This document shows positions 11,359 through 21,693 of a DNA stretch of 42,379 bases, one piece after another; the stretch's first letter is position 1; each line of letters starts with the position of its first letter. Position numbers and translations under genes: made by a program. Location of the stretch: the NCBI GenBank assembly GCA_026392155.1, contig JAPLCP010000041.1, forward strand, positions 1-42,379, given 5' to 3'. The notes below the pieces were generated by a model. It was not told where the DNA came from, did not search any database, and worked only from the letters and a program-made list of their open reading frames with translations. The DNA comes from Armatimonadota bacterium. GTDB lineage: Bacteria; Armatimonadota; Armatimonadia; Armatimonadales; Armatimonadaceae.

Positions 11359-12294
11359 TTACAGACTCTCCACCAGCTTCAGCCACGCGATTTTCCCTGC
11401 GAGTTTCTTCACCAGCTCCAGTGCATGCGCCCGATCCCGCGTCAACCCAAACACCGACGAGCCCGAGCCACAGAGCAGCGCACGCACGGCTCCTGCATCG
11501 GTGAGGGCAGCATGGAGCGCCGCCACTTCCGGGTAGGCAGGAAGCACCGCGGCCTCGAAGTCATTGGACAGCCTCCCCCCAGCCCCCTCCGGCTCCGCGA
11601 AGGGGGAGTTTATCAGTTGCAGAGTGGCAGTGCCCGGCGCACGATTCGGGAGTGCGTCGAGAAGCGCGTAGGCCGGGCCCGTGGGCACGCCGATGGCGGG
11701 GCGGGCGAGCACGCCGTAGAACTTGGGGATCTTTAGCGCAACAGGTTCGATGATCTCTCCACGGCCTCGCATCCGCACCAGCCCTCTGAGCTCGCCTTCC
11801 TTGCCCTGAGGGAAGGGGCCGGGGGATGGGTTCAGAAACAGCGCGACATCGGAGCCGAGCTGCGCGGCAAGGGGAAAAAGCGCCTCTATCGGCGCTTCCA
11901 GCGCCTCACCGATTGCCTTGAGCACGGTGGCGGCGTTGCTACTGCCCGCCCCGAGTCCGGCCTGAGCCGGGAGGCGCTTGGCAAGCGTGATCCAGACCTG
12001 GAGCTCTTGCTCTGGCGCAAGCGTGTCCAGGGCGAGCTGAGCGGCTTTGTAGGCGAGGTTCTCCACACCTTTGGGAATCGGCTCGATAGCCACGGCATCC
12101 GGACGGCGGTCTTTGAGGATCAGCTTCACCTGGCGCGGGCCGGGCTTGACGGTGATCATTAGCTCGTCGGAGGCGGAGAGAAGCACCACGAGCGAGTCAA
12201 TGTCGTGAAAACCATCCGGGCGTGGCAGCCCCACATCCAGCGTCAGGTTGAGCTTACACGGCGAGCTTAGGGCCGCTTTGTAGGGAAGGCTCAT
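11359..12294 (-). CDS. ispE: 4-diphosphocytidyl-2-C-methyl-D-erythritol kinase, carrying two inserted repeats
   Basis: The GHMP kinase phosphorylates CDP-methylerythritol in the MEP isoprenoid pathway. KLNLTLDVGLPRPDGFHDI is near residue 14. The glycine-rich ATP loop is LPAQAGLGAGSSNAA (109-122) and the conserved GSDV follows at 147-150. At 311 residues it is somewhat long. Residues 155-170 (NPSPGPFPQGKEGELR) and 230-241 (SPFAEPEGAGGR) interrupt otherwise conserved blocks and coincide with GC-rich palindromic DNA, so they look like in-frame repeat insertions. Its ATG overlaps the stop of the upstream gene (ATGA), indicating coupling. Confidence 0.93.
   Translation of the reverse strand: MSLPYKAALSSPCKLNLTLDVGLPRPDGFHDIDSLVVLLSASDELMITVKPGPRQVKLILKDRRPDAVAIEPIPKGVENLAYKAAQLALDTLAPEQELQVWITLAKRLPAQAGLGAGSSNAATVLKAIGEALEAPIEALFPLAAQLGSDVALFLNPSPGPFPQGKEGELRGLVRMRGRGEIIEPVALKIPKFYGVLARPAIGVPTGPAYALLDALPNRAPGTATLQLINSPFAEPEGAGGRLSNDFEAAVLPAYPEVAALHAALTDAGAVRALLCGSGSSVFGLTRDRAHALELVKKLAGKIAWLKLVESL
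11569..11612. repeat. GC-rich palindromic repeat inside ispE (element A)
   Basis: CCCCCT (11583-11588) and AGGGGG (11601-11606) form arms around a 12-nt loop, flanked by further C-runs. It codes residues of about 230-241 of IspE, at a loop before the conserved NDFEAAV block. It resembles palindromic intergenic repeats more than kinase sequence. Confidence 0.6.
11786..11836. repeat. GC-rich palindromic repeat inside ispE (element B)
   Basis: CCTTCC (11795-11800) and GGAAGG (11811-11816) form the core. On the minus strand the 25 bases beginning GAACCCATCCCCCGG are identical to a stretch of the DUF1592 gene (35995-36019), and GCAAGGAAGG matches after a variable loop. It codes IspE residues 155-170. 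Confidence 0.8.
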
Positions 12295-13394
12295 TTCTTG
12301 GGCGTGCCCCGGCGCAGGACAACGGAAGAAATACTCCCCGAGACGGCTTTCATGCGCTTATAGCCGGGCGCGGCCACTTTAAAAGCAATTGGCTTGCTTG
12401 GGTCAAGGGGGCGCACATCTAGCATCACTTTCCCCGCAGGACCGCTGACGGAGTACATATCCGGAGCAAGTGGCACCCAGGCAGGAAGCTTCACTCTCAG
12501 CTCGGTCTGGAGGAAAACTCCATTGCGCACGGCATTGACCAGCGCCCCAGGAGTCGTGTCTTCCAGGTGGTAGAGCGCAAACCCAATCACTTTGGAGCCA
12601 AAGACCTCATCGGTGTCGAGAGCCATCCCGATGTAGTAGTCCATACCCTCCGTGTTGAGCTGCCTGAGGCGCTTATCGGCGGGGCCAGCAGCACTGTAGC
12701 GAGCCATGAGCGGCGCGATCTGCCGGTTGTAGTAGAGCTGTAAACCCGCCGCCTCGCAGAAGTCATCGGTCTTGCGCGGGAGCGCCAGTACATCCTCACG
12801 AAGCCACTTGAGAAACAAGCGCTCGCCGAGAAAGCCTGCCGCATCATTTTCAGGGTCTTTGTAGCCACGCGCAGCCAGTAGCACCAAGTGCCCCCACTCA
12901 TGCGCAATTGTCCGCGCCCACTCAATCTCCGGACGCGGCTCCGCAATCTCAAAAAGATAGACATGGTGTGCCTTGGTCTCCGCCGCCGCACTCGCCCGTG
13001 TTGGTGCTTTGACCCGTGTCAGCCAGACATTGGCGATCTCCTCGCCCTGCGGGTAGGTCGCCTCCTGTCCCACACGGTCTTTATGAAGCCTCAGCAGTCG
13101 TCCTGCTAGCCGCGCCACTTTAAGCGCAAACGCACGGTCGTTGGAGTCGTGGCGCACCGCGACCACCTGCTTAAAGCCGCCACTGACAACCGGTGCATAG
13201 ACAGCGATCTGTCGTGAGAGCTTCAGCCCGTAGTTGGGCTCCTCTTCGGCCTTTCCCAGCATCGTGGTGGAGGGCGCGACGACCAAAAATCCCCCGGGCA
13301 GAGTCTCCAGCTCCATCCCCGTACCAAGCTCACTGAGCGCTTCTTTGTTGGCGGGGTTGATGGGAAGGTCCTGTGGGGCGGCGAAAAACTTCAT
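12291..13394 (-). CDS. putative zinc-metallopeptidase-like protein with HEWGH motif
   Basis: The 367-residue protein has AHEWGHLVLLAARG, where HExxH (His165, Glu166, His169) is the zinc-binding and catalytic motif of many metalloproteases. GERLFLKWL about 20 residues later offers a Glu third ligand. The N-terminal part has no family I recognise; the C-terminus resembles a beta-sandwich. No signal peptide is evident from this start. ATG 13394 is preferred because TACAAT ends 6 nt before it; the longer frame upstream runs into the divergent gene. It heads the ispE operon by a 4-nt overlap, but a link to isoprenoid synthesis is not evident. Confidence 0.65.
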   Translation of the reverse strand: MKFFAAPQDLPINPANKEALSELGTGMELETLPGGFLVVAPSTTMLGKAEEEPNYGLKLSRQIAVYAPVVSGGFKQVVAVRHDSNDRAFALKVARLAGRLLRLHKDRVGQEATYPQGEEIANVWLTRVKAPTRASAAAETKAHHVYLFEIAEPRPEIEWARTIAHEWGHLVLLAARGYKDPENDAAGFLGERLFLKWLREDVLALPRKTDDFCEAAGLQLYYNRQIAPLMARYSAAGPADKRLRQLNTEGMDYYIGMALDTDEVFGSKVIGFALYHLEDTTPGALVNAVRNGVFLQTELRVKLPAWVPLAPDMYSVSGPAGKVMLDVRPLDPSKPIAFKVAAPGYKRMKAVSGSISSVVLRRGTPKK

Positions 13395-13400
13395 GCGCTC

Positions 13401-13406
13401 ATTGTA
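13401..13406 (-). promoter_or_regulatory. -10 TACAAT (GGTACAAT) of the HExxH-ispE operon
   Basis: Ends 6 nt before ATG 13394, no Shine-Dalgarno. AGTCGC lies exactly 17 nt upstream (13424-13429), as for the propeller gene. GGTACAA recurs in mirror orientation at 13438-13444 for the divergent gene. Confidence 0.6.
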
Positions 13407-13437
13407 CCGTGCGACTCTCGATTGCGACTTCCGATAA

Positions 13438-13445
13438 GGTACAAC
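13438..13445 (+). promoter_or_regulatory. -10-like GGTACAAC of the FAD oxidase gene
   Basis: TACAAC ends 7 nt before GTG 13453. With the mirror-image GGTACAA of the opposite promoter it forms a symmetric back-to-back promoter pair in a 58-nt spacer. Confidence 0.45.
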
Positions 13446-13452
13446 CAGAGAC

Positions 13453-14475
13453 GTGACTCCTGAGCTTTTGACCGATCTCGAAACCCGACAGAGTGCCTCG
13501 CGCTCCTGGTTCCCGCCGCACCTGAAGATACGTCCCCTTCTCTGCGATGCCGTTGCACAACCACAAAGCACCGACGAGGTTGCTGTGCTTGTGGCGTGGG
13601 CCGAGGCGCAGGGTAAGAGTCTTCGTGCCATGGGCGGCGGAAGCGGGACAGGCGAGCTTGCGTCTGTCGATATTGCCCTAGACACCAGCCACCTCACCGA
13701 GCTCTCCTGGAGCGAAGAGGACCTTACCGTAACAGTGGGGGCAGGCAAGACAGTGGGCGCCCTGGAAGATCAGCTCGCTCGGCATGGCTACACCACGGGG
13801 CACGTGCTAGGCAGTGCGAATCTGGCCACGGTGGGCGGCTGCATTGCCACGGATGCACATGGGCTCTTTACGGGGCGCTACGGCAGCTTCCGTGAGAGTG
13901 TGCTGTCTCAGAACACGGTCGGCGGGATTATCGTGGAAGCGACCCTAAAAATGCACCCTCAGCCCGAGGCACGTGCCTGGGCGGTGTTTGACTTCGGAGA
14001 CTTCGACGATGCCTGCGATGCCCTGCGCCTGATCCACCGCTCCGATGCAAGGCCCAGCTTGGCAAGAATAACAGCGCCACAGCGGGTTCTACTTGCCTTT
14101 GAGGGGGACGAGGTTGTCCAGACAGGGCACTTTCAGATGGCCTATGCCGTCTGCCAGCAGCTTGGCGGCATACCTGCCTCCCCCGATGATGGCGAGCGCT
14201 GGCTGGAGGGCCGCCAGCGAAGTGATTTTTGGAGCGCTAACGCACAGTCAGACACTTTCGCCGATTTTATGCGCCAGAAAGCCCCCTGGTCTTCTGTTTC
14301 AGAGACCTGCCAGCGCCTGAGAAATGTGTTAGAGGGCCGGGTGGCGAGCCTCGATATCGAGGTCGCGCACCCCACCCCACATGGAGCGACCCTAGAGCTT
14401 GCCTTCACGCTTCACGGCGACGAGCAGCGCTATCGGGAGCTTAGAGAGCTTATCCTCCCATCGCGGAAAGCGTGA
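13453..14475 (+). CDS. FAD-binding (PCMH/GlcE-type) oxidoreductase
   Basis: The 340-residue flavoprotein of the FAD_binding_4 family is related to glycolate oxidase subunits and alkyl-DHAP synthases. The FAD-binding motif is LRAMGGGSGTGELASVDIAL (about 57-77). The second FAD-contact segment is LGSANLATVGGCIATDAHGLFTGRYGSFRESVL, followed by GGIIVEATLKMHP. The C-terminal substrate domain is short for the family, and the gene ends inside the convergent amidohydrolase gene (26-bp overlap), so it may have been trimmed. The start is GTG 13453. The substrate cannot be inferred; glycolate or D-lactate oxidation are common roles in the family. Confidence 0.8.
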   Translation: MTPELLTDLETRQSASRSWFPPHLKIRPLLCDAVAQPQSTDEVAVLVAWAEAQGKSLRAMGGGSGTGELASVDIALDTSHLTELSWSEEDLTVTVGAGKTVGALEDQLARHGYTTGHVLGSANLATVGGCIATDAHGLFTGRYGSFRESVLSQNTVGGIIVEATLKMHPQPEARAWAVFDFGDFDDACDALRLIHRSDARPSLARITAPQRVLLAFEGDEVVQTGHFQMAYAVCQQLGGIPASPDDGERWLEGRQRSDFWSANAQSDTFADFMRQKAPWSSVSETCQRLRNVLEGRVASLDIEVAHPTPHGATLELAFTLHGDEQRYRELRELILPSRKA

Positions 14476-19154: not shown

Positions 19155-19439
19155 TTAGCTCTCTAGTCCCCCCGCTCCAACCGGGGGGATAAAGAAATCC
19201 GCGTTGCGTTCGATAGCCGCCTTCCATTTTTCGGGCACATCGTCCACAGAAAAGATCGCCCCAACCGGGCACTCGGTCTCGCAGAGGCCGCAGTGGATGC
19301 ACTCGTCAGGGTTGATGTAGAGCTGGGGATCATCGCCCTCGCCGCCATGAATGCAGTCCACCGGGCAGGCGGCCACACAGGACTTATCTTTGACCCCAAT
19401 ACAGGGATCGGCAATGACATAGAAGAGCTGATTTTTCAT
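19155..19439 (-). CDS. seven-iron-type (3Fe-4S/4Fe-4S) ferredoxin
   Basis: The 94-residue electron carrier has a first cluster motif CIGVKDKSCVAACP (C-x7-C-x3-C-P), typical of the 3Fe-4S site in seven-iron ferredoxins, and a second motif CIHCGLCETECP binding a 4Fe-4S cluster. The tail PEKWKAAIERNADFF is the usual C-terminal segment. It is a paralog of the gene at 21451. It diverges from the Crp/Fnr gene across 61 nt holding a palindrome near -41.5, so it is probably controlled by that regulator. Confidence 0.93.
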   Translation of the reverse strand: MKNQLFYVIADPCIGVKDKSCVAACPVDCIHGGEGDDPQLYINPDECIHCGLCETECPVGAIFSVDDVPEKWKAAIERNADFFIPPVGAGGLES

Positions 19440-19445
19440 GACCTC

Positions 19446-19451
19446 AGGCTA
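19446..19451 (-). promoter_or_regulatory. -10-like TAGCCT (GGTAGCCT) of the ferredoxin gene
   Basis: Ends 6 nt before ATG 19439. The weak match to consensus fits an activator-dependent promoter; CGGACA 18 nt upstream is a poor -35. Confidence 0.45.
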
Positions 19452-19475
19452 CCGTCGCCTTGCTAGCACTGTCCG

Positions 19476-19487
19476 TGACTTTTGTCA
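19476..19487. promoter_or_regulatory. TGAC-TTTT-GTCA palindrome, predicted Crp/Fnr site
   Basis: A perfect 4-4-4 palindrome resembling FNR/DNR-type boxes. Its centre is 41-42 nt from the predicted ferredoxin transcription start, the class II activator position, and it directly adjoins the -10 box of the regulator gene (19488), where binding would repress. A single site found by eye. Confidence 0.5.
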
Positions 19488-19493
19488 TAGAAT
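19488..19493 (+). promoter_or_regulatory. -10 TAGAAT of the Crp/Fnr regulator gene
   Basis: Ends 7 nt before ATG 19501. It overlaps the upstream in-frame ATG 19492, making 19501 the better start. Confidence 0.5.
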
Positions 19494-19500
19494 GGACTCT

Positions 19501-20163
19501 ATGACCCGTGACGATGCCCTGCGGCGTGTGGGATTCCTGAAAGAGGCGCCCGAGGCGGCACGACGGGCGCTGGCAATGTCTGGCCATACCCAAACACTTA
19601 CCGAAGGCGAGCTACTGTTTCTGGAGGCCACGCCCTCGCTTGGGTTGCTGGTCGTTCTGGAGGGGAGCCTGAAGGAGAGCAAGCTCGATGCACGAGGCCG
19701 CGAGCTAATCCTGGCGATCCATAAACCCGGCTCCAGTGTCGCGGAGCTGCCTCTTTTCGACGGCGGGAATCATCCGACACAGGCAAGCGCCCTCACCGAA
19801 AACACCCGCATTTTCCGCGTCCCACGGCCCGCTTTCGAGAGCATTCTTACCAACTATCCCGAGCTAGCACGTGCGGCTCTGCGTAGCCTCGCGATCCAGC
19901 AGCGCAAGCTCCTAGAGATGCTCAAAGCCCAAGCACTCCACACCGTCCGCGCAAGGCTTGCCGCCTACCTGCTCGCCCAAAATAGCGCGACGTTCTCACT
20001 GCCCGAGACCAACGAGAGCATCGCCGCTCAAGTGGGAACCGTCCGAGAAGTCATCTGCCGCACCCTCCACCAGCTCGCCGATCTGGGGCACATCGCGCTT
20101 ACGGGCCGCACGATTGCCATTGTGAACCGAGAAGCGCTGGAAAAAATAGCATCAGGACATTAA
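19501..20163 (+). CDS. Crp/Fnr-family transcription regulator
   Basis: The 220-residue protein has an N-terminal cyclic-nucleotide-binding-type beta roll (about 20-120), a dimerisation helix and a C-terminal winged helix with SIAAQVGTVREVICRTLHQL as the helix-turn-helix. The phosphate-binding cassette is altered (AELPLFDGGNHPTQASA lacks the Arg that contacts cAMP), and there is no N-terminal Cys cluster as in Fnr, so the signal is neither clearly cAMP nor Fe-S-sensed oxygen. The recognition helix keeps the Glu and Arg (E-x3-R) that read TGA in this family, matching the palindrome at 19476. Likely target: the divergent ferredoxin and itself. Confidence 0.88.
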   Translation: MTRDDALRRVGFLKEAPEAARRALAMSGHTQTLTEGELLFLEATPSLGLLVVLEGSLKESKLDARGRELILAIHKPGSSVAELPLFDGGNHPTQASALTENTRIFRVPRPAFESILTNYPELARAALRSLAIQQRKLLEMLKAQALHTVRARLAAYLLAQNSATFSLPETNESIAAQVGTVREVICRTLHQLADLGHIALTGRTIAIVNREALEKIASGH

Positions 20164-21416: not shown

Positions 21417-21445
21417 TTGCGGAGAGAGAGCGAGCAGGGTAGAAT
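21417..21445 (+). promoter_or_regulatory. promoter TTGCGG-17-TAGAAT of the second ferredoxin gene
   Basis: -35 TTGCGG (21417-21422), 17-nt spacer, -10 TAGAAT (21440-21445, GGTAGAAT), then 5 nt to ATG 21451. The best complete sigma-70-like promoter in the window, and leaderless. Confidence 0.6.
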
Positions 21446-21450
21446 TGGCC

Positions 21451-21693
21451 ATGCCTTACGTGATTGCCGAGCCCTGCGTCGGCGTAAAAGACAAGTCCTG
21501 TGTTGCGGTCTGCCCGGTAGACTGCATTCATGGTGGCGACGACGACAACCAGCTCTTCATTGACCCGACTGAGTGTATTGACTGTGGCCTCTGCGAGCCG
21601 GAGTGTCCGGTAGACGCCATCTTCATGGATGACGAAGTGCCTGAAAAATGGTCGAGCTTCATCCAGCTAAACGCCGACTACTACAAAAAGTAG
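21451..21693 (+). CDS. seven-iron-type ferredoxin, second copy
   Basis: The 80-residue electron carrier closely resembles the 19155-19439 product: CVGVKDKSCVAVCP (C-x7-C-x3-C) then CIDCGLCEPECP, ending PEKWSSFIQLNADYYKK. It lacks the other copy's Gly/Pro-rich C-terminal tail and is more acidic (GGDDDNQ). The start is ATG 21451; a TTG two codons earlier is in frame but overlaps the promoter. The two copies point in opposite directions around the Crp/Fnr-ung-Hcp block and could be expressed under different conditions. Confidence 0.94.
   Translation: MPYVIAEPCVGVKDKSCVAVCPVDCIHGGDDDNQLFIDPTECIDCGLCEPECPVDAIFMDDEVPEKWSSFIQLNADYYKK

Follow-up and report, generated by a model that had tools for sequence, protein, structure and literature searches.

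A conserved candidate Crp/Fnr-type operator between a regulator gene and a 7Fe-type ferredoxin gene in Armatimonadales

The divergent regulator/ferredoxin locus

The window, as we call the whole 42,379-nucleotide stretch of DNA analyzed here, belongs to a genome (G000) of the Armatimonadota, order Armatimonadales, with 4.77 Mb in 228 contigs and 96.6% completeness. The candidate operator TGACTTTTGTCA is placed between the divergent genes of a ferredoxin, fdxA2, on the minus strand and of a Crp/Fnr-family regulator on the plus strand. The features of the locus are listed below.

19155..19439, minus strand: fdxA2, FdxA-like 7Fe-type ferredoxin, predicted to be regulated and probably leaderless (Pfam Fer4 over cut-off; FdxA_Actino 102 bits)
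19446..19451, minus strand: TAGCCT, -10 hexamer of the ferredoxin promoter; its first base is number 25 after the site, and its T, A and final T do not vary in the eight-genome alignment
19476..19487, no strand assigned: candidate Crp/Fnr-type operator TGACTTTTGTCA (from the sequence; kept in each of the order's eight readable gaps)
19488..19493, plus strand: TAGAAT, -10-like hexamer of the regulator, directly adjoining the operator (from the sequence)
19501..20163, plus strand: gene of the 220-aa Crp/Fnr-family regulator, probably leaderless (over the Pfam cut-offs for cNMP_binding and HTH_Crp_2; orthologues)
21440..21445, plus strand: TAGAAT, -10 hexamer 5 nt ahead of the ATG of the second ferredoxin (from the sequence)
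21451..21693, plus strand: second FdxA-like ferredoxin, which lacks the operator and is presumed to be the housekeeping copy (profile matches, site scan)

The original prediction had reported a TGAC-N4-GTCA palindrome at 19476-19487 that touched the -10 box of the divergent regulator. The palindrome was confirmed as the candidate operator, and the TAGAAT hexamer directly abuts it. The fdxA2 side has the layout TAGCCT-6nt-ATG, with the ATG at 19439 on the minus strand, and the regulator side has TAGAAT-7nt-ATG, with the ATG at 19501. Hexamers of the form TAnn[AT]T close before start codons were common in the window. By crude gene calls, such a hexamer stood 4-7 nt ahead of the start codon in about 10 of the 33 called genes and a Shine-Dalgarno match was seen in only 5, so the proposed leaderless start of fdxA2 is plausible. 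Both fdxA2 and the regulator plausibly fit leaderless promoters. The FdxA 7Fe ligand pattern, C-x7-C-x3-CP-x2-C together with C-x2-C-x2-C-x3-CP, was present in fdxA2 when read by eye, and the protein scored 102.4 bits against the NCBIfam FdxA equivalog (FdxA_Actino), under the cut-off of 125.

Conservation of the site and of its distance to the promoter

The bare pattern TGACN4GTCA occurred twice in the window against 0.47 expected, a count reached in 9 of 100 shuffles, and 46 times in the whole genome against 33 for the reversed pattern. Neither enrichment was significant. The other copy in the window (13010-13021) lies inside a gene on the minus strand (12294-13751). The missing enrichment in the window, with none that is strong in the genome, is what a chance sequence would give; against this, the palindrome and its spacing to the -10 hexamer were kept down to about 50% regulator identity, and a chance origin is extremely improbable. 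The palindrome is a convincing candidate through its conservation, not through its bare count.

Orthologues of the regulator, about 47-76% identical, were picked by protein similarity alone. TGACTTNNGTCA was found in 8/8 readable regulator/ferredoxin gaps of the order, from two families and with the window's gap included; the gap of G002 was counted as readable though its contig ends before the ferredoxin, and a ninth gap (G004), cut by a contig end, was left out. The original prediction was open to loss of the palindrome in relatives with the same gene pair, and no such loss was seen in these eight gaps. Their alignment had no invariant columns other than both half-sites including the AA, a single G close by, and the T, A and T of a -10 hexamer, which on the ferredoxin strand comes 24-25 nt after the site. 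Within Armatimonadales, the site was present at all 7 regulator-adjacent fdxA genes and at 0 of 17 other fdxA matches (Fisher p = 3e-6, relatedness ignored). The relatives were mostly draft genomes, often metagenome-assembled, and related sequences are non-independent samples. The regulator orthologue of G006 (L013, 1501-2148) contained four in-frame TGA codons and an apparent frameshift next to an intact operator, reflecting either decay or an assembly error.

The composite of site and -10 hexamer occurred once in each of G000, G001, G002, G003 and G006. The 45 other TGACN4GTCA copies in G000 were mostly inside ORFs, and none had an intergenic class II layout by crude gene calls. Since the composite occurs once in G000, a regulator with a single promoter looks like the simplest reading there. 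A switch in ferredoxin use had also been predicted, and this seems reasonable given the second fdxA without a site 2 kb away.

The ferredoxin genes of family f5 (Chthonomonadia) are not divergent from the regulator; they lie downstream of it, on the opposite strand. Six f5 genomes yielded 11 fdxA genes, each with its own GTGAYTTAAGTCAC-like site and 10 of them with a -10 hexamer at the right distance. One Chthonomonadia locus (L047, 1719-9432) holds the regulator and ferredoxin among genes recognized by eye as catalase-peroxidase-, MscS-, FeoB- and FeoA/DtxR-like, which gives the neighborhood an iron/oxidative flavor.

Another Crp/Fnr paralogue, rather than the divergent regulator, might bind the site. 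G000 contains at least one further related Crp/Fnr gene, and its other Crp/Fnr paralogues have similar recognition residues, the Arg/Glu pair being common in the family. However, the presence of the site tracks that of the divergent regulator across the order, and in f5 it is present at all ferredoxin genes found and at most regulator genes; binding by a paralogue is therefore very unlikely.

The distance from the site to the promoter was examined in 21 distinct fdx promoters, and 19 of them had, on the ferredoxin strand, a TAnnnT hexamer beginning 24-26 nt after the site. This loose pattern was picked once the first promoters had been seen, with the f5 promoters added later; in 2000 shuffles, taking the best window over all offsets, the count never exceeded 8 against the 19 observed. 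The distance between the site and the ferredoxin start ranged between 37 and 118 nt, so the promoter spacing is held and not the distance to the gene. The center of the site falls at -41.5 (offset 24, most relatives) or -42.5 (offset 25, the window), the class II position. The class II placement of the original prediction thus held, with the exact value shifted from 41-42 nt to -42.5, counting from the A of the fdxA2 ATG. As at a class II promoter, the site near -41.5 is accompanied by a -10 hexamer and no -35 box, and this conserved geometry strongly supports the proposal that the ferredoxin gene would be activated in class II fashion. Comparative genomics establishes the site, its spacing to the -10 hexamer, its co-occurrence with the regulator and the single composite in the genome.

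Binding, the direction of control, autorepression and the signal, as we infer them, would come together as follows. A Crp/Fnr dimer would bind the palindrome, which would be the operator of the divergent regulator. Bound at -42.5, where a -35 box would lie, the dimer would recruit RNA polymerase to the weak fdxA2 promoter (TAGCCT). In the window's species, this dimer would also obstruct the regulator promoter next to it and thereby restrict its own supply.

The opposite direction of control, in which the regulator represses fdxA2 from the site and a signal releases the repression, draws on the overlap of position -42 with the expected place of the -35 box. A repressor, however, would need no fixed distance to the -10 hexamer, and here the 24-26 nt were held in 19/21 promoters with weak and varied hexamers. 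The fdxA paralogues without a site also often have a better -10, such as TATAAT or TAGAAT. Repression is unlikely on these grounds, and activation of fdxA2 is the reading we prefer.

The predicted autorepression fared less evenly. The gap from the site to the regulator -10 was 0 nt in the window; it measured 18 nt within the genus, 22 nt for G003 and about 30-35 nt for f5, and no conserved autoregulatory geometry was found among these. Autorepression is plausible in the window's species, where a dimer would cover the promoter, but the geometry varies among relatives, and the 22-nt spacing of G003 would even suit activation.

The regulator protein and its possible signal

The regulator belongs to the Crp/Fnr superfamily by its matches to PF00027 (55 bits) and PF13545 (51.5 bits), each of which exceeds its cut-off. 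Its recognition residues R182, E183 and R187 correspond to R180, E181 and R185 of CRP, and the Glu/Arg recognition pair that had been read from the sequence is indeed there as R182 and E183. Within the half-site, R180 has been correlated with G3, and E181 with A6 (Rodionov et al. 2005; PMC1274295). Most f5 sites had the full GTGAY-RTCAC form, and f1 sites usually had GTGA in one half and ATGA in the other.

The sensor side was also as predicted, with the cAMP-contacting Arg and the Fnr cysteines missing. The position of CRP Arg82 is His91 in the window's regulator and Tyr in several close relatives, and the score against the CRP equivalog was 37 bits against a cut-off of 266. The lack of an Arg82 equivalent does not fit a cAMP-responsive CRP. 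The sole Cys of the protein sits in the recognition helix, and the lack of cluster cysteine ligands does not fit a 4Fe-4S FNR. The best NCBIfam match was FtrB (NF006901) at 72.8 bits, and an FtrB identity was rejected with this score far under the cut-off of 211. No conserved His, Met or Cys was found in the sensor domain across the subfamily. A Cys near residue 46 was seen in many relatives, with Ser in the window's genus. The subfamily was recovered with 97/94 support and contained several branches, in a tree built without reference HcpR, DNR and FNR.

The neighborhoods of sister regulators offered hints about the signal. In families f3/f33, hcp adjoins the regulator in three genomes, and class II sites were found upstream of hcp in 3/3 tested genomes bearing both genes. 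The hcp gene of G012 had no site, and no such regulator was found in G012. The fdxA genes of f3/f33 likewise had no site (L224, L230). In the same families (L119, L126, L125, L121), the composite was also seen ahead of a gene for a protein with two [4Fe-4S] sites, a nitroreductase-like gene and an AhbC-like radical SAM gene. In one genome only (G018, L105), TGACAAAAATCA with a correctly spaced TAnnnT stands before a DXP synthase-like gene.

Among Acidobacteriota homologues, RIC/YtfE, an iron-sulfur repair gene, was near 11/30 against 0/49 control loci, and TGACATAAGTCA-type sites lay between some of these regulators and RIC. One Acidobacteriota homologue had a divergent fdxA with TGACTTAAGTCt and TAACGT at offset 24, the same layout as in the window. 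Ferredoxin as a general partner in Acidobacteriota was rejected, being present beside only one of the homologues examined. No site was found at the Armatimonadota RIC genes tested.

These links to hcp and RIC/YtfE suggest, by analogy, nitrosative or redox stress. A more specific version, in which the regulator senses nitric oxide or nitrosative stress in the manner of HcpR or DNR and fdxA2 is a stress ferredoxin, is compatible with class II activation of fdxA2. It is favored by the hcp linkage and hcp sites of f3/f33, by the RIC linkage in Acidobacteriota, and by HcpR regulons, in which TTGACnnnnGTCAA sites accompany hcp and the ferredoxin frdX (PMC1274295). Against it, neither hcp nor RIC was found in G000 (96.6% complete), so the nitrosative link comes from relatives only; no heme ligand is conserved, and the f5 neighbors are, by eye, catalase-peroxidase- and FeoB-like genes. 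We regard sensing of nitric oxide or nitrosative stress as a serious possibility that falls somewhat short of an even chance.

The reading that combines an operator of the divergent regulator, class II activation of fdxA2 and autorepression in the window's species appears highly probable to us from the sequence comparisons. Within it, a redox or nitrosative signal is the most likely, because the sister regulators are linked to hcp and RIC/YtfE.

Comparison with known Crp/Fnr systems

Our search of open-licence papers returned no description of this regulator/ferredoxin pair. The regulator, operator and target form a sharply testable triple in a phylum for which we found almost no published work on regulation, with a site kept for very long at a distance fit for switching on a spare ferredoxin gene. 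The comparisons suggest that one regulator subfamily apparently keeps its operator and promoter geometry while its target varies between hcp, RIC and ferredoxin; target switching and the sensor question can thus be tested directly. As a tentative scenario, which we consider rather doubtful, an ancestral nitrosative-stress target (hcp or iron-sulfur repair) could have been exchanged for ferredoxin. In Armatimonadales, the outcome would be a dedicated Crp/Fnr regulator that switches a single promoter, that of a duplicated 7Fe ferredoxin; in Chthonomonadia, all fdxA genes found would be under its control. Its signal would be one that no described family member uses.

Parallels were found with HcpR, which is predicted to target hcp and the ferredoxin frdX (PMC1274295). 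The HcpR regulon shares a Crp/Fnr regulator, a TGACnnnnGTCA core and a ferredoxin-type target with the present system, and in cyanobacteria HcpR is divergent from its only target, as the regulator is here (PMC1274295). The sister regulators of Armatimonadota with candidate sites upstream of hcp add to the likeness. Compared with the HcpR operator (TTGACnnnnGTCAA or TGTGAnnnnnnTCACA), the present sites have the matching TGAC-N4-GTCA core, with GTGA half-sites in f5; the outer bases in the window, CGTGAC and TATGAC, differ from those of HcpR. The target also differs, being an FdxA-like 7Fe-type ferredoxin in a genome where no hcp was found, and the recognition helix of the window's regulator is CRP-like, with Arg at 180. 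The HcpR of P. gingivalis is reported to have Met68 as a heme ligand (PMC12750200); no equivalent was identified in a sensor domain without conserved Met, His or Cys, HcpR itself not being in the alignment. An assignment to HcpR was set aside, as control of hcp did not apply in G000 and the tree lacked a reference HcpR.

The class II promoters of E. coli CRP and FNR are similar in having a site near -41.5, a poor -10 and no -35. They differ from the present case, which is apparently a one-promoter regulon under a protein without the cAMP Arg and the FNR cysteines. M. tuberculosis Cmr resembles the predicted system as a redox-responsive Crp/Fnr protein not acting through cAMP, with one site in a divergent gap that acts on both genes (PMC5499769). 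However, its site is TGTCAGCGTGCTGACA, the neighbor gene is another one, and M. tuberculosis fdxA belongs to the DosR regulon (PMC5499769). Overall, the system would work like a class II Crp/Fnr switch, and its operator and family neighborhood resemble those of HcpR.
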